From contig JAUZRX010000026.1 of assembly GCA_030949985.1 (NCBI GenBank), positions 1-64,000 on the forward strand: a stretch of 64,000 nt of DNA. Direction: 5' to 3'. Origin of the DNA: Acidobacteriota bacterium. Its GTDB lineage: Bacteria > Acidobacteriota > Polarisedimenticolia > J045. The notes below the pieces were generated by a model. The model searched no databases. It was given only the letters and a program-made list of their open reading frames with translations, and was not told the DNA's origin. The translations under genes and the position numbers were made by a program. Positions 3,001 through 62,337 of the stretch are shown here, piece after piece (the stretch's first letter is position 1; each line of letters starts with the position of its first letter).

Positions 3001-3236
3001 CCTGGATCGACCCAGAACTTCACCGGGTGCTCGATCGCCAGATTCCACTTGTGCCCGTACTGCCAGTGCTGGGTCTTGCCCGATGGCCAGATAGCCGAGG
3101 CCATGCGGCCCTGGCCGTCGTAGGTGTAGGTCATCTGGGTTCCGTCAGCACGATCGACGCTGAGGAGGTGACCCTGGTCATCGAAGTGGTGGGTGCTCGT
3201 GCGGCCTTCCGAGGTGATGGTGGCCTGATCGATGTA
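1..3236 (-). CDS. Giant RHS/YD-repeat protein, C-terminal segment (third reading-frame segment, runs off left edge)
   Basis: This segment continues the RHS protein of the two following entries. It stays open from about 3236 to base 1 without a stop, so the C-terminus lies outside the window. It is filled with YD-type repeats (YDALGRKV, YDSLSRV, YDAQGRQT, YDGLGR), each about 20 residues apart, as in secreted RHS polymers that form a beta-cage shell. The preceding segment leaves this frame near 3237-3243: adding one G to the GGG there restores a smooth join reading GEPGPYIDQATIT. No RHS-core or toxin tip is visible, so any variable C-terminal domain would lie beyond base 1. Either a sequencing or assembly indel or a real mutation explains the break; the sequence alone cannot separate them. 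Confidence 0.8.
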
Positions 3237-6200: not shown

Positions 6201-7339
6201 AACTCCGTCACGCCGCCGTCCGGCGCGGTGATGCGCGTGACCTCCCCCAGCACGCTGGTCTCGAGGCTCCAGGTCGACCCGAAGGGATCGCTCACCGTGG
6301 CCAGGTGCCCGGCGGCGTCGTAGCCAAGGCTCCAGCTCGACCACTGGTCTTCACCCACCGGCCAGTCGAGGCCCGTCTGGCGCCCGGCCGCATCGTGGCT
6401 CACGCGAATCACCCCGCAGATCGCCGGAGGGCCGGCCGACAGGCAGGGAGGGTGGATCTCGGCGATCTGCCCGGTGGCCGAGTAGACGTACTCGGTGCGC
6501 CGGCCCTCGGCGTCGATGCGGGCGGTGATGTCGCCGGTGACGGGATCCCGCTCGTAGGTGATCACCGCCTCGGCAGTGCCGTCCTCGTCCGGATCGGTGG
6601 CCTCCGATACCAGCCAGCCGCTCTCGTCGTAGCCGAGTTCCGATACGGCTCCGCAGGGGCTGGTCAGGCGGGTCAGCCGTCCTTCGGCATTGCGCTCGAA
6701 AACCCACTCCGGCCGCACGCCGTCCACCAGAGGTCCTGTGTAGCGCAGCAGCCGGTGCTGACCGTCGTGGGTGAAATCGTGCTCGCCGCCCTCCGGGTCG
6801 ACCAGGCGCACCACGTCGCCCGTGGCCGCGTCGCGCTCGATGGCCCACACACCTCCGGCGGGATCGGTCATCGACGTGCTCATGCCGTCGGCGTCGAAGG
6901 CGTAGGTCCATCCGCCGCCTCCCGGCCCGGTGACCACGGTGGCGTCTGCACCGTAGCTGTAGGTCGTCTCCAGATTCCCCTGGCGCACCGAGGTCGCCCG
7001 ATCGTCGGCGTCGGTCAGCACGTGGAAGATCACCGACTGGTCGGGCGCGATCACGTCCACCACGTGGTTTTGCACGTCCCAGCCGAAAGACCAGGACGCT
7101 CCGTCCGCGCCGACGAAGCCGATCAGCTTGCCGGTCGCATCGTAAGACAGGCTCAGCTCGCGACCGGTCGAATCCAGGATTCGCACGATCCGCGGCGCCG
7201 GAGTGTCCGCCGGCGCCGGCTCACCCCACATCGGCCTGAAGAACTTCACCCAGGCGCCGTCGGTGGCCTGGATCTTCTCCAGGTAACCATCCCGATAGCT
7301 CAAGTCCAGGGCGTTGCCCGAGGGGTCCTCCTCCCGCAC
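3131..7339 (-). CDS. Giant RHS/YD-repeat protein, middle segment spanning end of module 1 and start of module 2
   Basis: A 1402-residue open frame of RHS repeats. Its first ~800 residues carry many YDAAGR/YDLAGR repeats. A degenerate RHS-core-like stretch follows (DPDPAFIDDPLGLPR). Then comes a cysteine-rich linker at about 4330-4500 (around ten Cys, including CVNFW and CRSSYVEDC). From about 4300 downwards a canonical DUF6531-type entry reads LSNGEFLLNVTDLSIPGRG followed by SRSYRNQ. That motif usually lies near the N-terminus of an RHS protein, so one polypeptide appears to hold two RHS modules in series. The annotated Met at 7339 is probably not a true start: upstream coding continues in another frame across a run of six C (7357-7362). 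The last ~35 residues before the stop at 3131 are out of frame. Confidence 0.8.
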   Translation of the reverse strand: MREEDPSGNALDLSYRDGYLEKIQATDGAWVKFFRPMWGEPAPADTPAPRIVRILDSTGRELSLSYDATGKLIGFVGADGASWSFGWDVQNHVVDVIAPDQSVIFHVLTDADDRATSVRQGNLETTYSYGADATVVTGPGGGGWTYAFDADGMSTSMTDPAGGVWAIERDAATGDVVRLVDPEGGEHDFTHDGQHRLLRYTGPLVDGVRPEWVFERNAEGRLTRLTSPCGAVSELGYDESGWLVSEATDPDEDGTAEAVITYERDPVTGDITARIDAEGRRTEYVYSATGQIAEIHPPCLSAGPPAICGVIRVSHDAAGRQTGLDWPVGEDQWSSWSLGYDAAGHLATVSDPFGSTWSLETSVLGEVTRITAPDGGVTEFYYGPSSRLERRVDALGQVRQWRYDAAGRVAEYEDELGEIWSLGYDAAGRLVSRTDPETRQWEWEYDLAGRLRRQVLPGGQEVLIVRDGAGRMVRRDLPGGSSEHFVWDAEGNLESMWSEDAAGDEVDHWTYSWDGRGLPTSVSQDSDLDGTSRMQRSASWSWDLSGRLVGWTDADGLEYSVQLDPWGEVDLSQRGGSNVARILRDPWSGWITDRQHYSENLSETMTRDAAGRVLTLQEWESSVLLRDMEVVRDAAGRIIEVIDHLEDPATTTAVERDLLGRITALRYGDGGEEEFGYDAAGRIVRLGQLDEVGIWHYYDYVLDRSGRPLSFLEEDRSTSYTWDFTPSEGDLGFVVRRVETSSGGETATLSFDVDGRITRVETETATGAVLRRRFRWMPGGLARAVSEQRWDGEGVEEEDVRLFMDMMGPWSEHPADTGAASSWKLPSLFLADRSGRGEWRRPLVGRGDRLRDEARLMEGLLGIDGSRVMEIFGGQTLGSGLELPSAGRLYPAPRAGEILTTAAGRVSVHDPDPAFIDDPLGLPRSAVSVPRPGWSSATERFPNAIDIRCGLSDYAEHHELECVNFWIQPPRKVMKCRSSYVEDCSTVCMGLRECPLEGGGGVGMCSGASAHRIPPVRNADRHPLGVTLSNGEFLLNVTDLSIPGRGLDLTLSRSYRNQDNIQGGFGRNWSFDLLDERLIRKVCDGAPVVWHRADGSEVSYPWPPNANQAVEGPLGKLLKYRVGDGVVYEAFWELRLPGGEVRTFKHMTRSGGDGPYGYPIRIARPGGTAIEIEWGEIDERDGCSDDWAPQKAILWSCDDSARTNPRADACHPRELGRFEFVTKRTCSRFVVTEVRAIQPIDEDQDGTPESESVRHVAYNHEQSGGRDYLTEVTVKETGGTAETVAKYEYHWKAEMDAGDTPRGGYMSDNLEHVFNGAGDELLSIQYRGEVGIYLAPILRDTVSGVQTPSRSVAFDFVQATDASGEPGPTSIRPPSPRKAARAPTTSMTRVTSSASIVLTEPR

Positions 7340-43028: not shown

Positions 43029-44084
43029 TCATTTCCGGCGCTCGAGCACCCGGCGGGCGGTGGCCGCCACCTGGGGGTCTTCATCGTCGACCAGTTCCCG
43101 GGCGGCGGCCAGTACGTCGGGATCACCGAGGTTCGCCCCCACGACCAGGGCGTTGCGCACCAGCCCCCCGCGCCTGGGGCGACCGAGGGGCGTCTTGCGG
43201 AACTCGCGACGCCAGGTCTCGGGGTCCAGGCGCGCCAACGCCCCCAGGCTCCACTGCGACCAGCGGGGATCGAGGGCCAGCGCCTCCTCGCCGGAGGGAA
43301 CGACCCGCCGGTTCCAGGGACAGACTTCCTGGCAGATGTCGCAGCCGAACAGCCAGTCCCCCACGGCCGGCTCCATTTCCGCCTCGATCTCGCCCCGATG
43401 CTCGATGGTGAGATAGGAAATGCAGCGCCGGGCATCGAGAAAGTAGGGTTCGGGCAGCGCCCCCGTGGGGCAGGCGTCGAGACAGGCGCGACAGGTCCCG
43501 CAGCGATCGGCGGCGGGCGGGACCGGGGGCAACGGGGGCAAGTCGGTGAGCACCACGCCGATCAGCCGCCAGGAGTCTCCCCGGGGCCCGATCAGGCAGG
43601 TGTTCTTGCCGATCCAGCCGAGCCCCGCCCGCAGGGCCAGCTCTCGCTCGAGAATCGCGCTGGTATCCACCAGCAGGGCGCGGCGGAAGCTCCGGCCGGC
43701 GGCTTTTTCGATCGCCTCGCACCAGTCGGCCAGCCGCTCCCGCAGCAGGTCGTGGTAGTCCCGTCCCCGGGCGTAGCGCGCGATGAACGGACCGATGCCC
43801 GGAAGACGCCGCCGATCGACGGGCTCGGTGAGATAGGACACGGTGCCCACCAGGGCGCTGCGGGCCCAGTCCCACTTGGAAGTCAGCTCCTTGCGGATCG
43901 CCGCCGTGCGCTCCATCCAGGCCATCGAGCCGTGGGCGCCGGCGCTCAACCAGCGGTCGAGCCACGAACCGTGGTCCGAAGGCCCGCAATCCGCCACGCC
44001 GCAGGTCGTCAGCCCCGCCGCCTTCCCGCAACGGGTGATCACCTCCGCACTGATGCCGGGACCGAGACCCTGCCGATCGTCCAT
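43029..44084 (-). CDS. queG: Epoxyqueuosine reductase
   Basis: The last enzyme of queuosine tRNA modification: it reduces epoxyqueuosine using cobalamin and two 4Fe-4S clusters. The protein is 351 residues. The catalytic Asp140 lies in LLVDTSAILERELA; ferredoxin-like cysteine groups CGTCRACLDACPTGA and CDICQEVCPWN are complete. About 45 residues at the C-terminus resemble HEAT-like repeats (VDDEDPQVAATARRVLE). ATG 44084 is the first start that keeps the conserved N-terminus without running into glgA, which is divergent 51 bp away. No other queuosine gene is nearby. Confidence 0.93.
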   Translation of the reverse strand: MDDRQGLGPGISAEVITRCGKAAGLTTCGVADCGPSDHGSWLDRWLSAGAHGSMAWMERTAAIRKELTSKWDWARSALVGTVSYLTEPVDRRRLPGIGPFIARYARGRDYHDLLRERLADWCEAIEKAAGRSFRRALLVDTSAILERELALRAGLGWIGKNTCLIGPRGDSWRLIGVVLTDLPPLPPVPPAADRCGTCRACLDACPTGALPEPYFLDARRCISYLTIEHRGEIEAEMEPAVGDWLFGCDICQEVCPWNRRVVPSGEEALALDPRWSQWSLGALARLDPETWRREFRKTPLGRPRRGGLVRNALVVGANLGDPDVLAAARELVDDEDPQVAATARRVLERRK

Positions 44085-44135
44085 GGAACGATTATGCCTC
44101 TCGCGCAACGGCCCCTCCTCCCCGATAATCCCGCC

Positions 44136-45611
44136 ATGCATATCGCCCATGTCGCCAGCGAAATGGCGCCTCTGGCCAAGGTCGGAGGCCTGGGAGACGT
44201 GGTGGGCTCGCTGCCCGCCGCCCAACAGGCCCTGGGCGACAGGGTGACCTGCGTCCTGCCGGCCTACCGCCGGGTTCTCGACCGGCTGGATCTGCGCTCG
44301 GCCCCGCTGGTGGAGACCCGCTACCGTATCGCCGGGGAAGAAATCGCCGGCGGCGTGATCGAAACCACCCACGGCGGCGTCCGCCTGCTGCTGATCCGCC
44401 ACGACGACTACTTCGACCGGGATGGGATCTACGACGACGGCCGGCACGCCTGGCCCGACAATCCCCGGCGCTTCGCCTGGCTGGCCGGCGCGGCCCTCAC
44501 CGCCCTGCGGCGGCTGGAGCCGGCCCCGGAAGCGATCTTCGCCCATGACTGGCCGCTGGCCCTGCTGCCCGTGCTGTTGCGGGCGCACAGTTATCCCGGC
44601 GATCCCTTGCGGCACTGCGCCACGATCCAGGTGATCCACAACATGGCCCACCAGGGCGTCTTTCCCCTCGACCTGGGCCGCGCCCTCGATCTTCCGGAAC
44701 ACTGGCTCGACGCCGACCTGCTCGAGGCGCTGGGCTCACTGAACATGCTCAAGGGCGGCATTCTCTGCGCCACCAAGGTCCTGACGGTCTCCCCCACCTA
44801 CGCCGAAGAGATCGTCTGGCCGGCCCATGGCGAGGGACTGGACGGCGCCCTGCTCTCCCGGGGCGACGACCTGTGGGGCATCCTCAACGGCATCGACACC
44901 AGCGTGTGGAACCCCCGGACCGATCCCCACCTCCCGGCCTCCTACGATGCCGGCAACCCGGCCGGCAAGACGCGTTGCAAGCGGGCGCTCCAGGAAGAGC
45001 TGGGCCTGGGGCCGCGGGACGAAGCTCCCCTCTTCGGCGTCGTCAGCCGCATCGATCCCCAAAAGGGCATCGACCTGATCGAGCAGGCCGCTCCGTGGCT
45101 GGTCGACCAGGGGGCCCAGCTCGTGCTGCTGGGGTCCGGCCGGCCGGGCCTGCTCGACCCCCTGCACGGACTGGCGCGGATCTGGCGCGAGTCGGTGTCG
45201 ATCCACGAACGCTTCGACGAAGCCCTGGCCCACCGCATCTACGCCGGGGCCGATTTCTTCCTGATGCCCAGCCGCTTCGAGCCCTGCGGGCTGGGACAGA
45301 TGGTGGCCCTGCGCTATGGCACACCCCCCATCGCCCGTCGCACCGGGGGGCTGGCCGATACGGTACGCGACACCTCCGAACATCCCGACGGCGGAAACGG
45401 CTTTCTCTTCGACACGCCCGATGCGGAGGGCCTGATCTGGGCCTGCCGGCGAGCGATCGATCTCTACCGGCAGCAGCCGGCTGAACTCATGGCCCTGCGC
45501 CGGCGGGGCATGATCGAGGATCTGTCCTGGGAGCACTCGGCGCAGACCTACCGGCGCCTGCTGCGCCGGGCGGTGCGCCGGGAACGCCGCCGGGTGATGG
45601 AGAACGCCTGA
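44136..45611 (+). CDS. glgA: Glycogen synthase
   Basis: Adds glucose from ADP-glucose (or UDP-glucose) to alpha-1,4-glucan; GT5 family, 491 residues. KVGGLGDVVGSLP near the N-terminus is the ADP-glucose motif, and the C-terminal half has FLMPSRFEPCGLGQMVALRYG with the catalytic Glu and the RRTGGLADTV loop. The start ATG 44136 lies 51 bp from the divergent queG. Other glycogen genes are not in the window. Its 3' end overlaps the convergent GspB-like gene by 125 bp. Confidence 0.95.
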   Translation: MHIAHVASEMAPLAKVGGLGDVVGSLPAAQQALGDRVTCVLPAYRRVLDRLDLRSAPLVETRYRIAGEEIAGGVIETTHGGVRLLLIRHDDYFDRDGIYDDGRHAWPDNPRRFAWLAGAALTALRRLEPAPEAIFAHDWPLALLPVLLRAHSYPGDPLRHCATIQVIHNMAHQGVFPLDLGRALDLPEHWLDADLLEALGSLNMLKGGILCATKVLTVSPTYAEEIVWPAHGEGLDGALLSRGDDLWGILNGIDTSVWNPRTDPHLPASYDAGNPAGKTRCKRALQEELGLGPRDEAPLFGVVSRIDPQKGIDLIEQAAPWLVDQGAQLVLLGSGRPGLLDPLHGLARIWRESVSIHERFDEALAHRIYAGADFFLMPSRFEPCGLGQMVALRYGTPPIARRTGGLADTVRDTSEHPDGGNGFLFDTPDAEGLIWACRRAIDLYRQQPAELMALRRRGMIEDLSWEHSAQTYRRLLRRAVRRERRRVMENA

Positions 45612-46041
45612 GGGTAGGATCCGCCCCCTGCCCACTCCAGGAAGAGAGCAGACGCACCGTCCCCGGCGCACCGCCGGCCACCAGCAGCACGGCCGTGGGC
45701 GAGATGTGGGCCACCGACCACTCCCCCACCGTCGCCCCTTCCCCCACCAGTCGGCCGTTGACCTGGGCCAGGGGCTGAACGGGGTCCCAGAAGATCGCCC
45801 CGGTCCAGGGCTCCGGTCGCGGATCGTCGGACGGCGGCGGGGCGGAAGCCGGCCACGCCATCAGGCCCCGCGGCATCGGCCCCCGGCGCACGGGACCGAG
45901 GGGCGGGACCGGGGTGGCGGCCACCGCCCGACGAGGCGCGGGCCGCGGGGCGGCAACCTCCAGGGTGCGCGTCGGCGCCATGCGCGCCAGCAGGGCCAGG
46001 GCCAACGCCGCCGCTCCCAGGTAGGCCAGCACCCCCTTCAT
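45487..46041 (-). CDS. GspB/PilP-like periplasmic protein
   Basis: A 184-residue protein with one N-terminal transmembrane segment (GVLAYLGAAALALALLARM), a Pro/Arg/Ala-rich linker and a small C-terminal domain (DPVQPLAQVNGRLVGEGATV, VAHISPTAVLLVAGGAPGTV). The domain resembles GspB and PilP, which sit in the periplasm and connect inner-membrane assembly platforms to the outer-membrane secretin. The ATG overlaps the PilO-like stop by four bases. The last ~34 residues are Ala/Pro/Arg-rich and read antisense to glgA; they may be spurious or a real tail. No secretin gene is adjacent. Confidence 0.65.
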   Translation of the reverse strand: MKGVLAYLGAAALALALLARMAPTRTLEVAAPRPAPRRAVAATPVPPLGPVRRGPMPRGLMAWPASAPPPSDDPRPEPWTGAIFWDPVQPLAQVNGRLVGEGATVGEWSVAHISPTAVLLVAGGAPGTVRLLSSWSGQGADPTLRRSPSPGGVPGAPPGAAGAGRSAPSAPRTDPRSCPAGAGP

Positions 46042-46610
46042 GAACCGGGCTCCCGGTCGGCGGCCTCGGCCAGGCGCAGCAGCGCCGGAGCCTGCACGTG
46101 CAGCGCCGTGACCATGTAGACCTGGGCCACGAAACGCGGATAGCGGGGCGCCGCCTCGATGCGCAGGCGCAACAGCTCCAGCGGTGGATCGCTGCGGGCC
46201 AGGGCGCCGACGAAGGCGACGATTTCCTCGTAGTCGCCGCTCCCCCGCACGGTGGCGGTCATGGCTCGAAACCGGGCGTCCCCGGAGGCCGGCGTCCCCG
46301 GAGGCCCGCCCTCGGCGCTCACCGGCAGCACCTCCCCGGTGCGGTACGTGATCCGGACCAGCGGCACCTCCGCGGCCACCTGGTGCAAGGCGGCGACCAG
46401 GTGGGACCAGGTGGCGAAGGGCGCCGCTCCGGGCGCCGGCCGCGGGGCTACGGCCCGTCGATGGGCCTCGAGCTGAATCTGCCGGCGGCCGAGGGCTCGG
46501 CATTCCACCGCCGAGCGGGCCGTCTGCCATACGCCCACGGCGGTCAGGGCACCGGCGAGCACCAACAGGGTGCGCGCCATGCCGGAACGGAGCTCGGGCA
46601 GGGGCCGCAT
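46038..46610 (-). CDS. PilO/GspM-like inner membrane protein
   Basis: A 190-residue bitopic protein: short cytoplasmic start, one TM (MARTLLVLAGALTAVGVWQT), a coiled-coil-like stretch (ECRALGRRQIQLEAHRRAV) and a ferredoxin-like periplasmic domain (ATVRGSGDYEEIVAFVGALA, LRLRIEAAPRYPRF). This is the PilO/GspM layout. It follows the PilMN-like gene by one base and precedes the GspB/PilP-like gene. PilO normally pairs with PilN in the platform that drives pilus assembly or type II secretion. Confidence 0.7.
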   Translation of the reverse strand: MRPLPELRSGMARTLLVLAGALTAVGVWQTARSAVECRALGRRQIQLEAHRRAVAPRPAPGAAPFATWSHLVAALHQVAAEVPLVRITYRTGEVLPVSAEGGPPGTPASGDARFRAMTATVRGSGDYEEIVAFVGALARSDPPLELLRLRIEAAPRYPRFVAQVYMVTALHVQAPALLRLAEAADREPGS

Positions 46611-46611
46611 G

Positions 46612-48012
46612 TCAGTCCTCCCGCGGCCACGGCGTCACCTCGTCCTCGAGGGCGAAGCGAGCCTTGTCGCCGTCTTCCAGCGCGGCAGCCAGGCGGGGCA
46701 GCCCCTGGACGAAAGGACTGGCGAAGAGATCTTCATGCAGCCCGGTCAGGATCTCGCCCAGCCGGGCCGGGCCGGCGCCACGCACCGTTCCCTCGAGAGC
46801 CAGGCGGGGCCGGACGGCGGACAGGTCCACCACCAGGGTCTCGTAATCCACGCCGGGCCGAACCAGCAGACCCGCCTCCCGCAGCAGGGCCGACCAGTCC
46901 GCGGCGGAGACCCGGCGGGGCGGGGCGGGCTCGACCGGCCGGGCCGCGGCCGGGGAAACCCTCGCGGCCTCCCGGGCCAGGGCCTCGACCCGGGCGGCCA
47001 TCCGGGCCCGGTAGACCCCCGTCCCCAAGGCCGCCACCAGGCTCAGGGCGGCGATCAGACCGGCGGCGGCCAGTGTCCGGCCCTCGGCGCGTCGCTCCCG
47101 CCGCCGCCGGGCCGCCGGCCCCGGAACGAGCAACGGCTCCACCCTCTTTCCGAGGGCGGCGAGCAGCGCGCCGGCGAAGGCGGGCGGAGGGCCGTCGTGG
47201 CCGGCGGCACGAGGCTCCAGGGCCTCCCAGGGATCCTCCCGCTCCACGGCGATCGCCTCGCCGGCCAGGGCCATGCGTAGCTGCTCGACGGTAGGCTCCA
47301 CTTCGGCCGCGCCCCCACAGACGATCACCCGCCGCGGCGGCACACTCTGCTTGGCGACGAAGGCCTGGAGCTGGGCGATGTCGTCCAGGCGCCTTTCGAT
47401 CACGCTGACCGGATCGTCGTCGCCCGGGTGCAGCCGGGGGCTTTCCTGGACCACCACCTCGCCCCGCCCTCCGGCCAGAACCAGGCACAGCCGCCCCCCG
47501 GTGGGCAGGACCAGCAGGCGAGGCCCGTCATCTTCATCCCTCGAGCAGGCCGCCAGCGCCGCGGGAACGATCACGCCCTCCACCGGACAGCCCAAGGTCT
47601 CGAGCAGGCCCGCCCAGCTTTCCAACGGCTCGCGCGGCAGGCGGACCACCCGCAGGTCGACCACGCCCTCCCGTGGACGGCGGAGGATCTCCTCGGCCTG
47701 GAGCATGTCACCACCGCCGTGGCCGGCGTGGCCCAGGCGCCAGGACGCCGCCCGCAACAGGTCGCGCCGGGGCATGGGGGGAAAGCGCAGATGATGACTG
47801 ACGGCCTGGCTGCCCAGCAGCAGGATCCGGCAGGGAGCGGGCGTGCCCAGCTCGGCGATGGTCTCGGCCAGGGCTTCGGCCGGACCGCCCCGGTCACCGA
47901 CGTCCCGGCCGGCGTGAGCGAGCAGGCTCCAGCCCCCCCGACGGCCCTCGACGAGGACCGCCCGCACTCCCTGGGGGGAGACCTCGATGCCGATTCTCCT
48001 GTTCCGGGGCAT
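46612..48012 (-). CDS. PilM-PilN (GspL-like) fusion protein
   Basis: A 466-residue protein with two recognisable parts. Residues ~1-290 form an actin-like PilM/GspL-cytoplasmic fold (RRIGIEVSPQGVRAVLVE opens it; RVIVCGGAAEVEPTVEQL closes it). After a basic linker comes a TM (TLAAAGLIAALSLVAALGTG) and a ~140-residue periplasmic domain (LAREAARVSPAAARPVEPAP, VDYETLVVDLSAVRPRLAL) like PilN/GspL. A single protein carrying both is the GspL architecture. The ATG has GGAGGAAG upstream. It is the first gene of a three-gene unit (PilMN, PilO, GspB/PilP) with no pilin, ATPase or secretin nearby. Confidence 0.75.
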   Translation of the reverse strand: MPRNRRIGIEVSPQGVRAVLVEGRRGGWSLLAHAGRDVGDRGGPAEALAETIAELGTPAPCRILLLGSQAVSHHLRFPPMPRRDLLRAASWRLGHAGHGGGDMLQAEEILRRPREGVVDLRVVRLPREPLESWAGLLETLGCPVEGVIVPAALAACSRDEDDGPRLLVLPTGGRLCLVLAGGRGEVVVQESPRLHPGDDDPVSVIERRLDDIAQLQAFVAKQSVPPRRVIVCGGAAEVEPTVEQLRMALAGEAIAVEREDPWEALEPRAAGHDGPPPAFAGALLAALGKRVEPLLVPGPAARRRRERRAEGRTLAAAGLIAALSLVAALGTGVYRARMAARVEALAREAARVSPAAARPVEPAPPRRVSAADWSALLREAGLLVRPGVDYETLVVDLSAVRPRLALEGTVRGAGPARLGEILTGLHEDLFASPFVQGLPRLAAALEDGDKARFALEDEVTPWPRED

Positions 48013-48152: not shown

Positions 48153-48965
48153 ATGGCGGATCTTTCACCGAAGCGCTACGGGAAGGACTACTACCAGCAG
48201 GAGTTCGGGCTCGACGAACTCCAGCGCTTCAACATGCACTGGTGGTCGGTCCGCTTCTACGCCCGCCTGGCCGACCGCCTGCTGCGGCGCCACGGTGGCA
48301 GGCGCGTGCTCGAGATCGGCTGCGCCCATGGTTACACGCTGGCTCGACTCGAAGCGCGCCACGAGACCTGGGGGATCGATCTCTCCGACTACGCCATCGG
48401 CAGGGCGCGGACAATCGCTCCGCGCTCGAGGGTCTTCTGCGCCGACTTCACGGCGGATCTGCCCCCGCAGATCGAGGCGGGCGGCTTCGACCTGATCATC
48501 GCCAAGTACGTGCTCGAGCATCTCGCCGACCCGGAAAAGGCCTTGCACCGCGCCTTCTCCCTGCTCGCGCCGGGGGGCCGCCTGCTCTACTCCGTGCCGA
48601 ACATGGACTCCCCCGGCCGACGCTTCAAGGGCCGGAAGTGGTACGCCTTCGGTGACGAAACCCACGTCTCGCTGCTCGAAAGACACGAGTGGATCGAGCT
48701 CACCCGGCGTACCGGCTTCGAGATCGAACGCACCTTCTCCGACGGTCTGTGGGACATGCCCTACCTCGAGTGGATGCCCACTGCTCTGCAATACCCGATC
48801 TTCTGCCTGCCGACGGTGGTCACCGTCTTCTTCGCCCGGCCGATGCTCCCCTCCCGCTGGGGTGAGAACCTGATCGTCGTGGCCCGGCGACCTGCCGAAA
48901 AGGCTTCTTCCGCCCAGGGCCCCGACGATTCAGCCGTGGCAGCCCTGCGCTCCAGGGACTCGTGA
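48153..48965 (+). CDS. SAM-dependent methyltransferase (class I)
   Basis: A 270-residue methyltransferase. SAM motif I is [19 protein letters not shown] (residues ~50-68), motif [11 protein letters not shown], and [20 protein letters not shown] resembles the post-motif of ubiquinone/menaquinone-type enzymes. The C-terminal part carries a hydrophobic stretch ([20 protein letters not shown]) that could embed in a membrane. AGGAGGGG before the ATG gives a very clear start. Its 3' end overlaps the convergent kinase gene by 36 bp. The substrate is not evident. Confidence 0.82.
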
Positions 48966-54083: not shown

Positions 54084-56552
54084 TCACGGCAGGCCCGGGA
54101 CTTTTCCCGCCGGCCCGGGCGCCGGGAAGGTGCGCGCGCGGTAGGCCAGGGTGATCACGGTCAGGGAACTGGCCGGCATCAGGATCGCGGCGACCAGCGG
54201 GTTGATCTGCCCGGCCATGGCCAGGGCCGCGGCGACCAGGTTGTAGAGCAGCGAGAACACCAGGCCGGTGCGGATCACCCCCAGGGTACGCCGCGCCCCG
54301 TCGACGACTTCGACGAGGGGAGCGACGCCTTCCCGGCTGAGATAGACATCGGCGGCGGCCATCGCCGCCTCGGCGCCGGAGTGCACGGCGATGCCCACAC
54401 CGGCCGCCGCCAGGGCCGCCGCGTCGTTGACGCCGTCGCCCACCATGACCACCCTCTCCGGCCGGGGATCCGACTCGATCACCGCCAGCTTCTGCTCGGG
54501 GAGCATCCCGCCCCGGCAGACATCCTCGGGCAATCCCAGTTGCCGCCCCACCTGGCGCACCAGCACCGGGTGGTCGCCGGAGAGCAGACCCACCCGCCAC
54601 CCTCGCTGCTCGAGGGCCTCGAGGGCGGCGCGGGCATCGCGCCGGATCGGGTCGCCCAGGCCGGCGCCGGCCACCACCACGCCGTCCCAGGCCACCAGCA
54701 CGGGAGTCAGTCCTTCACCGATCGCCGCCTCGACCTGCCGCCGCTCGGCGGCTTCCAGCGGTCGGCCGATCTCCCCGGCGATGAAACTCGGCGAGCCGAT
54801 GGCCACCGGGCGACCTGCCAGCCGGGCCCGCATGCCGCTGCCCAACACCTGTTCGACCGCCTCGATGGACGCCTCGCCGGAGGCCTCGAAGGCCTCGGCC
54901 AGGGCCAGGGCCACCGGGTGGCTCGAGCCGCGCTCGATGGCGGCGACGGCGGGACCGATGCTCCGGTCGCCCCACCAACGCAGCACCTGCATCCGGCCCT
55001 CGGTGAGTGTGCCGGTCTTGTCCAGCCAGATGCGGCCCGGGCGGGCCAACCGCTCGATGATGTCGGCCCCCCGCAGGAGGATGCCCCGTCGGGCCGCGCT
55101 GCCGATGGCGGCGCTGACGGCCAGGGGCGTGGCCAGGCCCAGGGCGCAGGGACAACTGACGATCAGCAGCGCCACCGCGTGTTCGATGGCCGCCGAGGGA
55201 TTCTCCGGGTGCCACCACCACCAGAGGACCACGGTGACGCCCGCGAGGAAAAGCACGGTGGCGGTGAACACCCCCGACAGCCGGTCCGCCATTTGTACGA
55301 TGGGAGCCTTGCGCCGCGAGAACTCCTCCACCATCGCCATCAGTTGCCCCACCCGGGTCTGCTCGCCCGTGCGCTCGACGCGCACCACGAGGCGTGAGCC
55401 CAGGTTGAGGGTTCCGGCGAAGACCTCGTCGCCGACCGCGATGGGAGCCGGCTGGGACTCCCCTGTCAGCAAGGCGAGATCCAGGGCGGAGGCGCCTTCC
55501 ACGACCACGCCGTCTGCGGGCACCGTCTCGCCCGCCCGTACTTCCACCAGGCTGCCGGGAGTCAGCGCCTCGACGGGGACCTCCCGCCCGACGGCGCCCT
55601 CGTCCAACGTGTCGAGCACCCGCGCCGTACGCGGGGCGAGGGAGAAGAGCAGCCCCGCCGCGTCGGCCGCCGCCCGCTGCCGCCGCCGCTGGATGAAACG
55701 GCCGGCCAGCAGCAGGAAGATCAGCGCGGTCACCGACTCGAAGTAGACTTCTCCCGTGCCGCGTATGGTGTTGAGGGCCCCCCAGCCGAAACCCGCGGCG
55801 ATGCCGATGGAGATCGGCAGGTCCATGTGCAGGGTCCGGGTACGCCAGGCACCCCAGGCGCCCCGGAAGAAAACCCCTCCGCCCCAGATCACCGCGGGCA
55901 GGGTGAGCAGCAGGCTGACCCAGCGAAAGAAGGTCTCGTACTCTCGGGCCATACCGTGGAACATCCCGCCGTAGAGGGCGAAGGCGATCAGCATCACGTT
56001 GCCCGCCACCGCGCCGGTGATGCCCAGGCGCAGCAGGAAACGGCGATCTTCCCGGCGGGCCCGTTCCTCGGCGGCGCTGGCCCGGTAGGGATGGACCGGG
56101 TAACCCAGCGAATCGAGCAGGCCGGCCACCCGCGAAAGGGACAGGCGCCGGGGATCCCAGCGCACCCGGGCCCGGCTGCGGCCGAGGTCGAGCCGAACTT
56201 CCAGCACGCCTTCCATCACCTGCGGCACTTTCTCCACCAGCCAGACGCAGGCCGCACAGTGCACGCCTTCGAGGTAGAGTTCCGTCTCGGCCAGGGAATC
56301 GTCGAGCCGGCGACAGTAGAGCGCGAAGAAGGCCGGGTCGTCGAACTCCTCGTAGGCCCGTCCCGTCACCCGCGGCTGCTGGGCCTCCGCCTCCCGGGCC
56401 AGGTTGTAGTAACCGTCGAGACCATGCTCGTGGATCACGGCAAAAACCGTGCGGCACCCCTCGCAGCAGAACTGCCGCTCGGCCCCTTCTTCCACCAGCG
56501 CGGCCGGGACCGGCAGACCGCAGTGGGTACAGGAAACCTCCCGGGCGTTCAT
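54084..56552 (-). CDS. ccoI: Copper-translocating P-type ATPase CcoI
   Basis: An 822-residue P1B-type ATPase that supplies copper for cbb3 oxidase. The first ~50 residues contain five cysteines (Cys8, Cys11, Cys29, Cys30, Cys33), a FixI/CcoI N-terminal zinc-ribbon-like feature. An HMA domain follows with Cys99 and Cys102 in HCAAC. The membrane ion-binding CPC lies in SCPCALGLATP, the phosphorylated Asp in LDKTGTLTEG, and GDGVNDAAALA completes the P domain. It is the last gene of the cbb3 operon and overlaps the SafE-like gene by four bases. Confidence 0.95.
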   Translation of the reverse strand: MNAREVSCTHCGLPVPAALVEEGAERQFCCEGCRTVFAVIHEHGLDGYYNLAREAEAQQPRVTGRAYEEFDDPAFFALYCRRLDDSLAETELYLEGVHCAACVWLVEKVPQVMEGVLEVRLDLGRSRARVRWDPRRLSLSRVAGLLDSLGYPVHPYRASAAEERARREDRRFLLRLGITGAVAGNVMLIAFALYGGMFHGMAREYETFFRWVSLLLTLPAVIWGGGVFFRGAWGAWRTRTLHMDLPISIGIAAGFGWGALNTIRGTGEVYFESVTALIFLLLAGRFIQRRRQRAAADAAGLLFSLAPRTARVLDTLDEGAVGREVPVEALTPGSLVEVRAGETVPADGVVVEGASALDLALLTGESQPAPIAVGDEVFAGTLNLGSRLVVRVERTGEQTRVGQLMAMVEEFSRRKAPIVQMADRLSGVFTATVLFLAGVTVVLWWWWHPENPSAAIEHAVALLIVSCPCALGLATPLAVSAAIGSAARRGILLRGADIIERLARPGRIWLDKTGTLTEGRMQVLRWWGDRSIGPAVAAIERGSSHPVALALAEAFEASGEASIEAVEQVLGSGMRARLAGRPVAIGSPSFIAGEIGRPLEAAERRQVEAAIGEGLTPVLVAWDGVVVAGAGLGDPIRRDARAALEALEQRGWRVGLLSGDHPVLVRQVGRQLGLPEDVCRGGMLPEQKLAVIESDPRPERVVMVGDGVNDAAALAAAGVGIAVHSGAEAAMAAADVYLSREGVAPLVEVVDGARRTLGVIRTGLVFSLLYNLVAAALAMAGQINPLVAAILMPASSLTVITLAYRARTFPAPGPAGKVPGLP

Positions 56553-57322
56553 GGGCCGGCGCAGCAGGGAGGCTCCTCTTCGGCGGCGGCCTGCACCTGC
56601 TCGACGGCCTGTTCCACCGTGGTCGGCGCCCGGCGCCCGGAAGTCGCCACGGCCACCTTCTCGATGCGGGTGACCACCGCCAGCAGGCCGACGACGATCA
56701 GCGCCACCGCGGAGATCGTCGGGAGATGACGGCGCAGGGGACCGGCCATGGCCTGCAGCCCGAAGCCCAGGGACACCATCACCGGCAGGGTCCCGGCCCA
56801 GAACACGGCCATCACCAGCGCGCCCCGGAGGGCGCTCGATGTTCCGGCCGCGGCGACGACGAAGGCATAGAGCCAGCCGCAGGGGAGCAGAGCCGAGGCC
56901 AGGCCTATCACAAGGGCCCGTACCATCGGGGGCTTTTCACGCAACTGGGCCATCAGGCGTCCGAGCAGACGTTGCACGGACGCGGGCAGGGCCAGGCGTC
57001 CGACGTCCACGCCGCGCAACTGGAGCAGGGAGACCACACCCCACAGGGCGATCAGCACACCGGCCAGAATCGCCGTGACCCGCTGAACGCCCGCCAGGCT
57101 GCCGGCCAGGTCCAGCGCCGCCCCCAGGCTGCCGGCGGCCGCGCCGAGGATCCCGTAGGCCACGAGCCTCCCGCCGCTGTAGCAGGCGTGCCCGATGCCC
57201 CGGCGCCACCCCCGGGAGGGGTCCGCACCGGCATAGACCGCCACCAGCGGACCGCACATGGCCGCGCAGTGCAACGAGCCCAACAGGCTCGCCAGAAAGA
57301 CCGTCACCACCAGGGCTGTCAT
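56549..57322 (-). CDS. SafE/TauE-type membrane protein (cbb3-associated)
   Basis: A 257-residue protein with six to seven membrane segments. GSLHCAAMCGPLVAVY (Cys19, Cys23) and ASALLPCGWLYAFVVAAAG give it the DsbD_2/SafE look of proteins found beside cbb3 operons, where they are thought to help copper delivery or haem/thiol handling. A C-terminal CC pair (EEEPPCCAGP) is also present. Its ends overlap ccoI and ccoH by four bases each, so it is translationally coupled within the operon. Confidence 0.85.
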   Translation of the reverse strand: MTALVVTVFLASLLGSLHCAAMCGPLVAVYAGADPSRGWRRGIGHACYSGGRLVAYGILGAAAGSLGAALDLAGSLAGVQRVTAILAGVLIALWGVVSLLQLRGVDVGRLALPASVQRLLGRLMAQLREKPPMVRALVIGLASALLPCGWLYAFVVAAAGTSSALRGALVMAVFWAGTLPVMVSLGFGLQAMAGPLRRHLPTISAVALIVVGLLAVVTRIEKVAVATSGRRAPTTVEQAVEQVQAAAEEEPPCCAGP

Positions 57323-57807
57323 CGTGGTTCGAGCTCCCGTGTCCGGGTCAGGGTGTAGCGCTGTTCACCATGCTCCACGACCCAGCGAAACTCCCACCTC
57401 CCCGGACGCTCCACGTTCAGCTCCGCCCGGTACCGGCCCGGTCCCGCCGGCTCGAGCCGCAGCTTTTGCCGGTGAGAGGAGCGGGCGATGGGAAAGGCCT
57501 CCACCTCGAGACTGGCGCCGTCGAGGTCGGCGCCCCGCCTGTCGCGCACCTGGGCCACCAGGGCCAGGGTTCCGGGAATCGGAGCGGCCGTGTCCAATTC
57601 GAAATGCAGCCTCCAGCCCAGTTCCCGGTTGATCGCCTGCTGGGCCTGGTGCTCGTCCCAGGCCAGGGCCTTCTGGTAGTAGTCCTCTTCCACGGCGAAA
57701 GAGGGGTTGGACCGCGCCACGACCAGCAGGGCGATGTTGGAGCCCACGCCCAGCACGAGCAGGCCGACGATGAACACCGGCCACTGCCATCCCTTCTTCA
57801 GTACCAT
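57319..57807 (-). CDS. ccoH: FixH/CcoH family protein
   Basis: A 162-residue protein with one N-terminal membrane segment (WPVFIVGLLVLGVGSNIALL) and a beta-rich periplasmic part (VEEDYYQKALAWDEHQAQQA, LRLEPAGPGRYRAELNVERP) typical of FixH/CcoH, which stabilises early cbb3 subcomplexes. ATG 57807 lies eight bases after the ccoG stop with GAGGG upstream; ATG 57825 with GGAAGG just before it is an alternative that overlaps ccoG. Confidence 0.88.
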   Translation of the reverse strand: MVLKKGWQWPVFIVGLLVLGVGSNIALLVVARSNPSFAVEEDYYQKALAWDEHQAQQAINRELGWRLHFELDTAAPIPGTLALVAQVRDRRGADLDGASLEVEAFPIARSSHRQKLRLEPAGPGRYRAELNVERPGRWEFRWVVEHGEQRYTLTRTRELEPR

Positions 57808-57814
57808 GCCGCCC

Positions 57815-59224
57815 TCATCTTCCATGGCCTTCCGGACCCAGCAGCCGGTACTCGTACTCCCGGTCGAAGGCCTCTCCGCTGTGGATGCGAATCCGCACGA
57901 CACGCTCACCCTGGGCGAAGCTCCCGGGCAAGACGTTGAGGAAAAGCGCCGTCGTCCCGGTCTTGCCGGCCCCCACCCGGATCGGATTCTCCGGGGCGAT
58001 CATCTCGACACCCTCGCCATCCACCAGGCTGAAGGTGTAGAGGCGGTCCTCGTTGCTGCGGTTGACCAGCTTGATGCGCACCTGGTTCGAGATCGCGCCG
58101 CCGGGCAGTTGGGTGTAGGGCGCTCCCAGACCGCGCAGAATGGTCACGTCGGTGTCCTGCTTGCGGGCCAGGCTGAGGACCAGCATGCCGAAGACCAGCG
58201 CCAGGATCAGCGGGTAGAGCACCACCCGCGGCCGCAGAATGCGCGTCTTGCGGCCCTTCAGGGCGTCCTGCGAGCTGTAGCGGATCAGGCCCCGAGGCCG
58301 GCCCAGCTTCTCCATCACCGCATCGCAGGCGTCGATGCACTGGGTGCAGCCGATGCATTCGAGTTGCAGACCGTCGCGAATGTCGATGCCCGTGGGGCAG
58401 GTCACCACGCAGGCCCGGCAGTCGACGCAGTCGCCCCAGGCGCCACCCTCCGGCGGCGGCCCCTTTTTCTGCTCACCGAGCCGACCACGCACCTCGCCAC
58501 GGCGGCGGTCGTAACCGACGATCAGCGAGTTGCGGTCGAGAAGCACCGACTGGAAGCGGCCGTAGGGGCAGGCCACGATACAGACCTGCTCTCTGAAGTA
58601 GGCGAAATCGGCGAACATCAGCAGCGTGACCAGGGCCATGATGGCAAAGGCCGTGGGATGCTCGGCCGGAGGTTGCTGAATCCAATAGAACAGCTGGTCG
58701 ACGCCCACGAAGTACGCCAGAAAAGTGTGGGCCACGAAGATCGAAACACCGAGGTAGGCCACGTACTTGAGCACGCGACCCGCCGAAGCGCCCTCCCGGT
58801 CCATCTTCAACTGCCGGGCGCGGCTCCCTTCGAAAAGACGCTCGATCGGCCGGTAGATGAACTCCATGTAGATGGTCTGCGGGCAGGCCCAGCCACACCA
58901 GACCCGCCCGAAGATCGCCGTCAGCAGAAAGATCGTGATGAAGATCCCCACCAGCAGGAGCATCAGCAGCATCGTGTCGGTGGCGAGGAAGGTCTTGCCG
59001 AAGAACGTGAATTGCTGCCGGGGAATATCGAGGAGCATCAGCGGCTTGCCGCCGACCTCGAGATAGGGAATCGCGGTGAAGGCCGCGATCAGGGTCCACG
59101 CCACGACCAGGCGCCTGCGATAGAAGCGGCCCTTGGACAGCTTCGGCCGAATCCAGCGCCGGGATCCATCGAGATTGAGCGTCGAGAGGACCTGTTCCTC
59201 GGCCTCCGGTACGTGTCGACTCAT
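57815..59224 (-). CDS. ccoG: cbb3 oxidase accessory protein CcoG (polyferredoxin-like cupric reductase)
   Basis: A 469-residue membrane protein that reduces copper for cbb3 assembly in well-studied relatives. It has about five TMs, GRVWCGWACPQTIYMEFIYR, a REQVCIVACPYGR group, and two complete ferredoxin-like 4Fe-4S groups (CVDCRACVVTCPTGID, CIGCTQCIDACDAVM). The C-terminal ~120 residues form an Ig-like CcoG_C domain (VRIKLVNRSNEDRLYTFSLV). It sits between ccoP and ccoH in the cbb3 operon. Confidence 0.95.
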   Translation of the reverse strand: MSRHVPEAEEQVLSTLNLDGSRRWIRPKLSKGRFYRRRLVVAWTLIAAFTAIPYLEVGGKPLMLLDIPRQQFTFFGKTFLATDTMLLMLLLVGIFITIFLLTAIFGRVWCGWACPQTIYMEFIYRPIERLFEGSRARQLKMDREGASAGRVLKYVAYLGVSIFVAHTFLAYFVGVDQLFYWIQQPPAEHPTAFAIMALVTLLMFADFAYFREQVCIVACPYGRFQSVLLDRNSLIVGYDRRRGEVRGRLGEQKKGPPPEGGAWGDCVDCRACVVTCPTGIDIRDGLQLECIGCTQCIDACDAVMEKLGRPRGLIRYSSQDALKGRKTRILRPRVVLYPLILALVFGMLVLSLARKQDTDVTILRGLGAPYTQLPGGAISNQVRIKLVNRSNEDRLYTFSLVDGEGVEMIAPENPIRVGAGKTGTTALFLNVLPGSFAQGERVVRIRIHSGEAFDREYEYRLLGPEGHGR

Positions 59225-59305
59225 CCCGACTCTCCTTTCCCGGCCGCCCCTGTCCTTCTGGACGGAGATGCGGCGGGCAGGAAAACGATACGCCCCGGAG
59301 AGCCG

Positions 59306-59917
59306 CTATTCACCCCCCGCGGCGGTCGTCGATGGCTGCTCACCTTCTTGATCGGGCTGGTAAAGCTCTCCCTCGGGAGCCTTGCCGTTGGGAGGGTTGG
59401 TGCCCTGGAGAGTCAGCACGTAACCCGCCAACTTGACCACGTCGGCCGGCGGCAGCAGGTTGCCCCAGGCCAGCATGCCCTTGGTCACCACACCGTCGTG
59501 AATCGTGCGGTAGATGTCGGTCGGCTTGCCGCCGTGAATCCAGTAGGGATCCGTCAGGTTCGGGCCGATCTGCCCCTCGCCGAACATTCCGTGGCAGGCC
59601 ACGCACTTGCTGCGAAAGATCGCCTTGGCCTCTTCCATCGCCCCTTCGTTCTGAGAGAAGGTCAGAATCGCCTCGTCGTCGATCTCACCCATCGCCAGGA
59701 TCGCCTTCGACTGCTGCTCGTAGTACTCCTTCATCACCGCCTGGTACTCGTCGGCCACCGTCCCTCCCGGGCCGAAATGGTAGTAGGGCACATAGAGCAC
59801 GGCGAAGACGATCGTGGCCCAGAAGATGTAGACCCACCAGCGGGGCAGGGGGTTGTCGTATTCCTGGATGCCGTCGAAATTGTGATCGAGGATCTTGTCC
59901 TGTTCAGGCGTCGTCAT
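59306..59917 (-). CDS. ccoP: cbb3 cytochrome oxidase subunit CcoP, mono-haem form
   Basis: A 203-residue membrane-anchored c-type cytochrome. DHNFDGIQEYDNPLPRWWVY before the TM is the CcoP signature. A single haem-binding motif CVACHG (Cys105, Cys108, His109) is present, with the axial Met likely in TKGMLAWGNLLPP. Standard CcoP has two haems and is ~300 residues, so this is the short form. ATG 59917 has AAGGAGG ahead of it; the 3' end of ccoQ overlaps by 14 bp. Confidence 0.93.
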   Translation of the reverse strand: MTTPEQDKILDHNFDGIQEYDNPLPRWWVYIFWATIVFAVLYVPYYHFGPGGTVADEYQAVMKEYYEQQSKAILAMGEIDDEAILTFSQNEGAMEEAKAIFRSKCVACHGMFGEGQIGPNLTDPYWIHGGKPTDIYRTIHDGVVTKGMLAWGNLLPPADVVKLAGYVLTLQGTNPPNGKAPEGELYQPDQEGEQPSTTAAGGE

Positions 59918-60107
59918 CGTGATCCTCCTTCCGGAGCACGGGATCGTCATCCACCAGGGGCATGAACCGGGCCTGCTCGAAGCGACTCCGATTGCGTCCG
60001 GCGAAGGTGTAGATCGTAATCAGCCCGACGGCAACCACCGCCGAGAGGAAGCCCGCCTCGGCCCAGGAGACCAGCCCGGAAGCGCCGACGATGTCACTCA
60101 GCCTCAT
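59904..60107 (-). CDS. ccoQ: cbb3 oxidase subunit CcoQ/FixQ
   Basis: A 67-residue single-pass protein (WAEAGFLSAVVAVGLITIYT, then an acidic tail DDDPVLRKEDHDDDA). Position between ccoNO and ccoP plus size and topology identify CcoQ, which stabilises the oxidase complex. Starts one base after the ccoNO stop. Confidence 0.88.
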   Translation of the reverse strand: MRLSDIVGASGLVSWAEAGFLSAVVAVGLITIYTFAGRNRSRFEQARFMPLVDDDPVLRKEDHDDDA

Positions 60108-60108
60108 T

Positions 60109-62337
60109 TCAGTCGGTTCCCGCGGCCTGGGTGCCGGCGGCGGGCTCCTTCTTGATATCGGTACCGAGACGTTGGAGGTAGGCGATCAGGGCGACAATTT
60201 TCTTGTTCTCGAGCCCCTCGGACTCTCCCTGCTCGACCAGGCCGTCGGCGATCCCCTTGGCCTGGGCCCGGGCGTAGTCGATCGAGCGATCCACCTCGCT
60301 CTGGTCGTAGGGCACCCCGAGCCGCTTCATCGCCGTCATGTACTTGGGGATGTTCTCGTAGTTCAGGTCTTCCGTCAGCAGCCACGGGAAGGGCGGCATG
60401 ATCGATCGGGGAGTGATCGACTCGGGGTCCTTCATGTGCCGCAGGTGCCACAGGTCGGGATACTTGCCCCCCACCCGATGCAGGTCGGGTCCGATGCGGC
60501 GCGAGCCCCACTGGAAGGGGTGGTCGTAGACGAATTCGCCGGGCTTGCTGTACTCGCCGTAGCGCTCGGTTTCAGCCCGGATCGGCCGCACCATCTGCGA
60601 GTGGCAGTTGTAGCAGCCCTCGGAGATGTAGATCTCGCGGCCGGCCAGCTCCAGCGGCGTGTAGGGCTGGACGCTGGAGATGGTGGGCACGTTGGACTTG
60701 ATCAGGAAGGTGGGAATGATCTCGAAGAGCGATGCCGCGATCACGGTCACGGCGACCATCACGGAAAAGAAGAACGGGAGCGACTCCCACTTCGCATGCC
60801 AGCGGGCCTTCATGAAGTACTCGAGGCGGTAGGCCACGTTGGCCACGTGGGCGCCGCTGGCCTCGAGATCGGAAGGCGAGTCCACCGTGGGCTTGAAATC
60901 GCGGGCCAGGGCGGGCGCCTGGTGCACCGTCTCTTCGTAGGTCGCCGGCCGGCGGCGCCAGGTCATCAGCAGATTCCAGGCGCAGAGGAGGGTCCCGGTG
61001 ATGTAGAGGCTGCCGCCGACGACCCGCGCCCAGTACATGGGCATCAGTTTCTGGGTCGTCTCGACGAAATCGGGATACGCCAGCCGGCCGGCCTCGTCGA
61101 AGGTCAGCCACATCAGACCCTGGGTCAGGCCGGCGGCGTAGATCGGGACGATGTAGAGCAGGATCCCGATCGTGCCGATCCAGAAATGCACCTCGGAGAG
61201 TTTCTTGCTCCACAGCTCGGCCTGGAAGATGCGCGGCGCCAGCCAGTAGAGCATGCCGAAGATCAGGAAACCGACCCAACCCAGCGCCCCCGCGTGAACG
61301 TGGGCGATGGTCCAGTCCGTGTAGTGGGAAAGATAGTTGACCTTTTTGATCGACAGCAGCGGCCCTTCGAAGGTCGACATGCCGTAGAAGGTCACGGCCA
61401 CGACGAAAAACTTGAGAATCGGGTCCTCGGCCACCTTGTGCCACGCCCCTCGCAGGGTCAGCAGGCCGTTGAGCATGCCGCCCCAGGAGGGCATCCAGAG
61501 CATCACGGAAAAGAGCATCCCCAGGGTCGAGGCCCACTCCGGCAGGGCCGTGTAGTGCAGGTGATGGGGGCCGGCCCAGATGTAGATGAAGATCAGGGTC
61601 CAGAAGTGGAGGATCGAGAGCTTGTAGGAGAAGACCGGTCGATTCGCCGCCTTGGGCATGTAGTAGTACATCAAACCCAGGAAAGGCGTGGTGAGCAGGA
61701 AACCCACGGCGTTGTGGCCGTACCACCACTGCATGAAGGCGTCCTGCACGCCGGCGTAGATCGAATAGCTGTCGGTCAGCGTGGCGGGAACCCAGAGGTT
61801 GTTGAAGATGTGGAGAATGGCGATGGTGATGATCGTCGCCAGGTAGAACCAGATCGCCACGTAAAGGTGCCGCTCGCGGCGTATCTTCAGGGTCATGAAG
61901 ACGTTCAGCGCGAAGACGACCCAGATCAGCGTGATCGCGATGTCGATCGGCCATTCCAGCTCGGCGTACTCCCGGCTCTGGGTGATGCCCAGCGGCAGGG
62001 TGATGGCCGCGGCCACGATGATCAACTGCCAGCCCCAGAAGTTGAGTTGACTCAGCAGCCCGCTCCACATGCGGGTCTTGAGCAGTCGCTGGAGCGAGTA
62101 ATAGACCCCCGCGAAGATCGCGTTGCCGGCGAAGGCGAAGATGACGGCGTTGGTGTGCAGGGGCCGCAGCCGTCCGAAGGTGATCCAGGGGATCTTGAAA
62201 TTGAACAGCGGATCGGCGAGCTGGAGAGCCGCGAGCAGCCCCGCCAACATCCCGACGATGCCCCAGACGACGGTAGCCAACACGAACTTCCGCACGACCT
62301 TGTCGTCGTAGACGAATTGCTCCATCTGTGCGTTCAT
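60109..62337 (-). CDS. ccoNO: cbb3 cytochrome oxidase CcoN-CcoO fusion
   Basis: A 742-residue protein carrying the catalytic haem-copper subunit and its mono-haem cytochrome partner in one chain. Residues ~1-475 are CcoN with twelve or so membrane segments, including YGHNAVGFLLTTPFLGLMYY, WAGPHHLHYTALPEWA and TDWTIAHVHAGALGWVGFL, which hold copper/haem ligand histidines. After a linker come a membrane anchor and CcoO with the haem motif CYNCHSQMVRP near residue 574. Fused CcoNO is known from Bacteroidota and some other groups. The gene is 12 bp downstream of the cNMP-domain gene. Confidence 0.96.
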   Translation of the reverse strand: MNAQMEQFVYDDKVVRKFVLATVVWGIVGMLAGLLAALQLADPLFNFKIPWITFGRLRPLHTNAVIFAFAGNAIFAGVYYSLQRLLKTRMWSGLLSQLNFWGWQLIIVAAAITLPLGITQSREYAELEWPIDIAITLIWVVFALNVFMTLKIRRERHLYVAIWFYLATIITIAILHIFNNLWVPATLTDSYSIYAGVQDAFMQWWYGHNAVGFLLTTPFLGLMYYYMPKAANRPVFSYKLSILHFWTLIFIYIWAGPHHLHYTALPEWASTLGMLFSVMLWMPSWGGMLNGLLTLRGAWHKVAEDPILKFFVVAVTFYGMSTFEGPLLSIKKVNYLSHYTDWTIAHVHAGALGWVGFLIFGMLYWLAPRIFQAELWSKKLSEVHFWIGTIGILLYIVPIYAAGLTQGLMWLTFDEAGRLAYPDFVETTQKLMPMYWARVVGGSLYITGTLLCAWNLLMTWRRRPATYEETVHQAPALARDFKPTVDSPSDLEASGAHVANVAYRLEYFMKARWHAKWESLPFFFSVMVAVTVIAASLFEIIPTFLIKSNVPTISSVQPYTPLELAGREIYISEGCYNCHSQMVRPIRAETERYGEYSKPGEFVYDHPFQWGSRRIGPDLHRVGGKYPDLWHLRHMKDPESITPRSIMPPFPWLLTEDLNYENIPKYMTAMKRLGVPYDQSEVDRSIDYARAQAKGIADGLVEQGESEGLENKKIVALIAYLQRLGTDIKKEPAAGTQAAGTD

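Follow-up and report, generated by a model that had tools for sequence, protein, structure and literature searches.

What is the inner-membrane platform of a type IV filament machine doing in a genomic region where no motor, pilin or pore for it was found? The question is raised by a three-gene operon on the minus strand of a 64,000-nucleotide stretch of DNA from an Acidobacteriota bacterium (assembly GCA_030949985.1, contig JAUZRX010000026.1, positions 1 to 64,000; this whole stretch is hereafter called the window). The operon encodes a fused PilM-PilN protein of 466 residues (PilMN; 46612..48012), a PilO/GspM-like protein of 190 residues (46038..46610) and a PilP/GspB candidate of 184 residues (45487..46041). 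Because orthologues lie in complete pilus loci of class-mates, a novel platform family was ruled out, and the operon represents neither a platform nor a system of a new kind: what has been displaced here is the platform of a type IV filament system, a known sort of machine. The best explanation that we can offer, and one that we put forward tentatively, is that the platform belongs to a dispersed filament system whose motor has been replaced and whose PilC and secretin are borrowed.

Complete loci in relatives and their counterparts in the window genus

In the following, G000 denotes the window genome, G001 a genome of the same genus, G008 one of the sister genus, G020 and G033 class-mates, and G041 a genome of another class. 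PilMN orthologues were found in seven of the 60 relatives (G000 included), which is also seven of the 41 genomes of the class. A phylum-wide search, in which four candidates per genome were scored, found them in 10 of 396 sampled genomes, including three distant ones of one genus (g32), of which the locus was read in G041. Among named contigs, the orthologues occur in Acidobacteria bacterium Mor1 (which is G020), in two Acidobacteria metagenome assemblies and in one assembly named simply as a 'bacterium'. No paper with a title concerning this filament system was found in the literature under acidobacterial names.

In G020, where everything lies on one contig, and in G033, a single locus carries, in this order, an HDOD protein, a prepilin, an ATPase, PilC/GspF, one or more pseudopilins, PilMN, PilO, PilP and a secretin. 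Pfam supports the names of four proteins of the G020 locus, as well as those of the HDOD protein and the prepilin of G000. In two further relatives, G005 and G006, PilMN, PilO, PilP and the secretin stay together. The G041 locus is MSHA-like (mannose-sensitive haemagglutinin) and ends with an AAA ATPase carrying a SPOR domain and a TPR protein, which we take to resemble MshM and MshN, respectively. A full set of adjacent partners, which was to count against the preliminary description of the operon as an orphan, stands in G020 and G033 and is missing from G000 as far as this genome is assembled.

Of this locus, a subset was found in the window genus and its sister. Prepilin orthologues scoring at least 187 bits occur in the same seven of 60 genomes as PilMN, while the best pilin outside those seven reaches 55 bits; where these loci contain a second pilin, its score is up to 59 bits. 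In G000 the orthologous HDOD-prepilin pair is found on another contig (C4), away from the platform, and G001 has the same pair. The preliminary description had proposed that the operon might complete an apparatus encoded elsewhere, and both the complete loci of the class-mates and this separate pair lend support to the proposal; its second suggestion, a platform that serves another purpose, is conceivable. In G001 (locus L014) a contig end cuts PilMN after its first 146 residues, beside the same methyltransferase that is the divergent neighbor in the window (48153..48965, plus strand; named by Pfam and not part of the machine). In G008 a mere stretch of approximately 100 bases separates the prepilin from PilMN, which means that the ATPase-PilC block does not occupy its usual position there.

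The remaining components are distributed less evenly. The secretin of this lineage (>800 bits) was found in four of the seven PilMN genomes; the searches did not find it in G000 or G001, nor a whole one in G008. The G008 secretin frame (contig C214, L078:61-774) breaks off behind the N-domains, where a stop codon within the contig terminates it and unrelated sequence follows. With this truncated protein as query, and E-values up to 10 considered, no secretin N-domain remnant was matched in G000. The own-lineage ATPase was detected full-length in two of the seven genomes and partially in G006, the own-lineage PilC in two and partially in G005, and genome profile searches found neither in G000, G001 or G008. 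A second HDOD-like protein, named by resemblance, has the prepilin as a near neighbor in G000 and G001 and shares the contig of the truncated secretin in G008 (L095:12483-14009, L096:4258-5832 and L078:3613-4713).

Those of the kept genes for which selection was measured are constrained. By the method of Nei and Gojobori (NG86), the ratio of nonsynonymous to synonymous substitution rates (omega) between G000 and G001 was 0.22 for PilMN (first 145 codons, about a third of the gene), 0.17 for the HDOD gene and 0.14 for the prepilin, against 0.15-0.37 for five neighboring genes. In its tested part PilMN is therefore under purifying selection, as are the HDOD gene and the prepilin, in line with their neighbors. 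We suggest that an ancestral single locus was taken apart in the genus: the HDOD and prepilin genes would have stayed together, the three platform genes would have moved to a site between the methyltransferase and a glycogen synthase, in that direction rather than the reverse, and the genus would have lost the ATPase, PilC/GspF and secretin that it originally had. On this view PilMN, PilO and PilP would make up the alignment platform, in the inner membrane, for a type IV filament system to which they are dedicated in this acidobacterial class. Selection would have kept this platform, which most likely continues to work with the pilin of its own system.

Identity of the three platform proteins

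The called genes span positions 48012-45487, in agreement with the extent first given for the operon. All three reading frames are intact and closely spaced: one base separates the PilMN stop from the PilO start, and the PilO gene and the third gene overlap by ATGA. A GGAGG lies upstream of the PilMN ATG, and in both the PilMN and the PilO gene guanine and cytosine make up a proportion of 0.88 of the third codon positions. Orthology, spacing and selection together rule out chance reading frames.

The window PilMN, a protein of the GspL type that we also take to be MshI-like, aligns with four orthologues at 30-34% identity. In its AlphaFold2 model, which is of moderate confidence (mean predicted local distance difference test score, pLDDT, 65.3; predicted template modelling score 0.53), an actin-like cytoplasmic part (about residues 1-292) is followed by a long helix (298-349), which is likely to be the membrane span according to the model, and by a C-terminal alpha-beta part (about 366-458). 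The cytoplasmic part has the PilM/FtsA-type fold, with PilM as the best match (Foldseek E 1.1e-11; Z 16.5, root-mean-square deviation (rmsd) 4.7, 277 aligned residues), FtsA close behind (Z 15.2) and EpsL (GspL) at Z 12.2. It is gene context rather than fold that distinguishes PilM from FtsA here. Neither the Pfam (PilM_2) nor the NCBIfam (pilM) model of PilM matched the window protein; PilM_2 touched three of the five members of the PilMN alignment weakly (best E 0.0048), while a search of the PDB with an orthologue profile led to the PilM protein from the type IVa pilus machine (E 1.7e-6).

The second protein aligns with three orthologues at 33-37% identity. Its AlphaFold2 model (mean pLDDT 75.6) has the long N-terminal helix (residues 6-54) and the periplasmic ferredoxin-like domain (about 63-170) of PilO and GspM. 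The best agreement was with PilO (Z 10.8, rmsd 2.3, 94 aligned residues), and the scores for Amuc_1100 and EpsM (GspM) were Z 9.9 and 8.4, respectively; unrelated ferredoxin-like proteins reached up to Z 8.0. The only sub-threshold NCBIfam match among the three platform proteins was that of GspM to this one (E 0.0079, 15.9 bits, cut-off 60), and a Pfam scan of the three gave nothing above noise. Standard family models thus nearly missed these proteins.

The third protein is named a PilP/GspB candidate because of where its gene stands and because it aligns with four orthologues (24-41% identity, mostly within one block). It has an N-terminal hydrophobic segment and a short conserved block at about residues 83-125. 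No family or PDB-sequence match of its own supports the name, its PDB matches being unrelated, and its orthologues give weak Pfam matches to CdsD_C (E 0.018) and Y4YQ_C (E 0.058). Its gene is overlapped in antisense by the 3' end of the convergent neighbor, a plus-strand frame (43398..45611) outside the machine, containing a gene that we take from its sequence to be a glycogen synthase; the last approximately 40 residues of the candidate run over the end of this frame and have no clear counterpart in the orthologues. Of the protein names first proposed, those of the first two are consequently borne out by folds (PilM/GspL and PilO/GspM), while that of the third stands on position and alignment.

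Several known systems were compared with this arrangement. With the type IVa pilus platform the window shares the PilM and PilO folds and the gene order M-N-O-P, but PilM and PilN form one protein and no pilQ is adjacent. With GspL-GspM of type II secretion it shares the predicted layout of an actin-like and a C-terminal alpha-beta part in one chain, together with the fold matches to EpsL and EpsM, but PilM and PilO outrank GspL and GspM by fold score. The locus of the relatives resembles that of MSHA in its fused PilM-PilN-type, PilO-type and PilP-position proteins, its ATPase with an MshEN domain, its PilC/GspF and its secretin. Sequence nevertheless does not single out MSHA, since MshL (158.6 bits; cut-off 250.2) matches the G020 secretin less well than GspD (178.8 bits) and PilQ (171.8) do, and the G020 ATPase scores best for PilB; MSHA-like is hence a tentative label. 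Set against the MSHA (MSH) model of Denise et al. (PMC6668835), G020 and G033 have pilin, ATPase, PilC and secretin. G000 has the orthologous pilin, but its own-lineage ATPase, PilC and secretin, and with them most of the system, were not found.

Motors and pores elsewhere in the window genome

The absence of ATPase, pilin and secretin from the window, as first reported, agrees with genome-wide profile searches, which placed none of these there (for pilins, among the two of three genome matches listed), and no PilC/GspF either. A second set of PilM, N and O had been suggested as something to look for, and one was found on contig C64, where ATPase, PilC, PilM, N, O, P, secretin and pilin-like genes lie together. 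These names were read from the sequence, and PilN, the secretin, the ATPase, PilC and one pilin were also matched by profiles. Since C64 has its own PilM-N-O-P set, the window genes do not simply fill a gap in that machine, and the operon as the platform of the C64 machine was not our first choice. The contig is also the sole place in G000 with a detected PilC. It offers both a PilC and a secretin, and in our explanation the displaced platform would borrow these two from a different filament machine of the cell.

As for the motor, contig C51 (L080:7700-10591) carries a row of a GspE/PilB-type ATPase with an MshEN domain, a B-box zinc-finger membrane protein and a prepilin-like protein. ATPases of this type scored above 700 bits solely in G000, G001 and G008 among the 41 class genomes, the next best reaching 452 bits. 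The Walker and zinc-type motifs are intact, and the protein carries the MshE-related motif for cyclic di-guanosine monophosphate (c-di-GMP; 60.3 bits, cut-off 38). Omega between G000 and G001 was 0.16 for the ATPase and looser for the B-box protein (0.37) and the prepilin-like gene (0.36). In the explanation that we favor, it is this ATPase that would drive the displaced platform.

Other ATPase-profile matches in G000 lie on contigs C10, C19 (inside a 570-residue frame), C23 and C24, and no pilus genes were recognised beside those on C10 or C19. The C10 match is a PilT-like gene standing alone (L141:7416-8591) beside alaS- and recX-like genes, all named by resemblance. A weak PilO-profile match on contig C58 (E 0.33) was rejected, as the sequence looks unrelated. 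Elsewhere in the window, positions 3-7339 hold two long frames whose sequence is YD-repeat-like and which perhaps encode an RHS-type protein, to judge from resemblance, and genes at 54084-62337 presumably represent a cytochrome cbb3 oxidase and its assembly cluster.

Competing explanations and significance

A displaced platform with a replaced motor has a number of observations against it. In G000 no prepilin peptidase (PF01478, Peptidase_A24) was matched, although 12 of 14 control genomes contain this family and the prepilins of C64 would need such an enzyme, and profile searches of G000 matched neither the second PilC nor the second PilQ of G001 and G008. The genes accB and accC are neighbors of the type IV pilus genes in G008 and of PilQ in G001. 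The G000 assembly may be without a whole block of such genes, perhaps with those that we take as lost among them, despite a listed completeness of 100 per cent. PilO was not credibly found in G001 (best E 0.16) and gave no match in G008 with E-values up to 10, the contigs ending in or just after PilMN there. Of the three platform genes, the selection tests covered part of PilMN, next to the HDOD gene, the prepilin and the C51 genes. The c-di-GMP motif does not mark out the C51 ATPase, as the ATPase of the class-mates has it too; the position of the C51 ATPase beside that cognate ATPase in the tree is weak (78/71, long branches flagged), and its shared distribution with the platform may reflect a single ancestral event. 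Five residues and an EIERS-type helix motif, common to the four aligned orthologues, are missing from the window PilMN, which speaks against an entirely normal function. Finally, that the products of the platform, pilin and ATPase loci touch one another and assemble a filament is something that we infer.

Several of these points would equally suit an ordinary type IV filament system in scattered loci, whose own ATPase, PilC and secretin fell into gaps of the draft assemblies. We consider this rather unlikely, yet it is the most serious of the alternatives. The peptidase, PilC and PilQ missing from G000 speak for it, as do the listed completeness and fragmentation of G001 (91 per cent, 750 contigs) and G008 (85 per cent, 480 contigs), and the fact that the fragmented genomes G005 and G006 each lack one part of a system that they clearly have, i.e. 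a detected cognate ATPase and a cognate PilC, respectively, which counts against reading absence as loss. Gaps would, however, have had to remove the same three components from three genomes in two genera while sparing PilMN and the prepilin, and in G008 both the short prepilin-PilMN interval and the stop in the secretin frame lie within assembled sequence. Loss would seem to describe the missing motor genes better than non-assembly does, and it is plausible that a filament machine has been kept without its own motor and pore.

How far such a machine has departed from a pilus is a separate matter. In a more radical version of the displaced platform, which we judge unlikely, a machine without its original motor, PilC and barrel, but still with platform, pilin and HDOD protein, would run on the different ATPase operon, with the secretin of the sister genus now a barrel-less N-domain lipoprotein. 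What it builds would then be no surface pilus but a pseudopilus or a scaffold in the envelope. Going further, platform and pilin might have been kept with no dynamic pilus at all, as a motor-less envelope scaffold or surface structure analogous to that of Akkermansia, an alternative that appears quite improbable. There, the cluster Amuc_1098-Amuc_1102 is described as pili-like and includes one protein of secretin type and another annotated as FtsA (PMC5332112). NCBIfam calls Amuc_1101 PilM-like; the Akkermansia cluster belongs to another phylum and has its secretin standing with the platform. In favor of the analogy are the likeness of the window PilO model to Amuc_1100, the failure to find a cognate motor and pore in three genomes and the truncated secretin in G008. 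On the other hand, the C51-type ATPase is retained in the very three genomes concerned and is under purifying selection between G000 and G001, and C64 makes another PilC and secretin available in the cell.

That the operon is a decaying remnant of a lost pilus system is still harder to accept. The residues and motif missing from PilMN and the run-on tail of the third gene could be signs of decay, but the frames are intact and tightly spaced, and the omega values of PilMN (in its tested third) and the prepilin fall within the range of their neighbors. Lastly, a spare platform swapping into the C64 machine, suggested by the location of the only detected PilC of G000, is scarcely credible given that C64 has a platform of its own and the window platform its own orthologous prepilin.

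These data describe a dedicated, sequence-divergent filament system in Acidobacteriota. If the platform has indeed been displaced and its motor replaced, nature would have provided an example of such a machine in which parts were lost and exchanged while platform and pilin are still under selection, opening the question of which parts of a type IV filament machine are needed and whether platforms accept the motors and pores of other systems.

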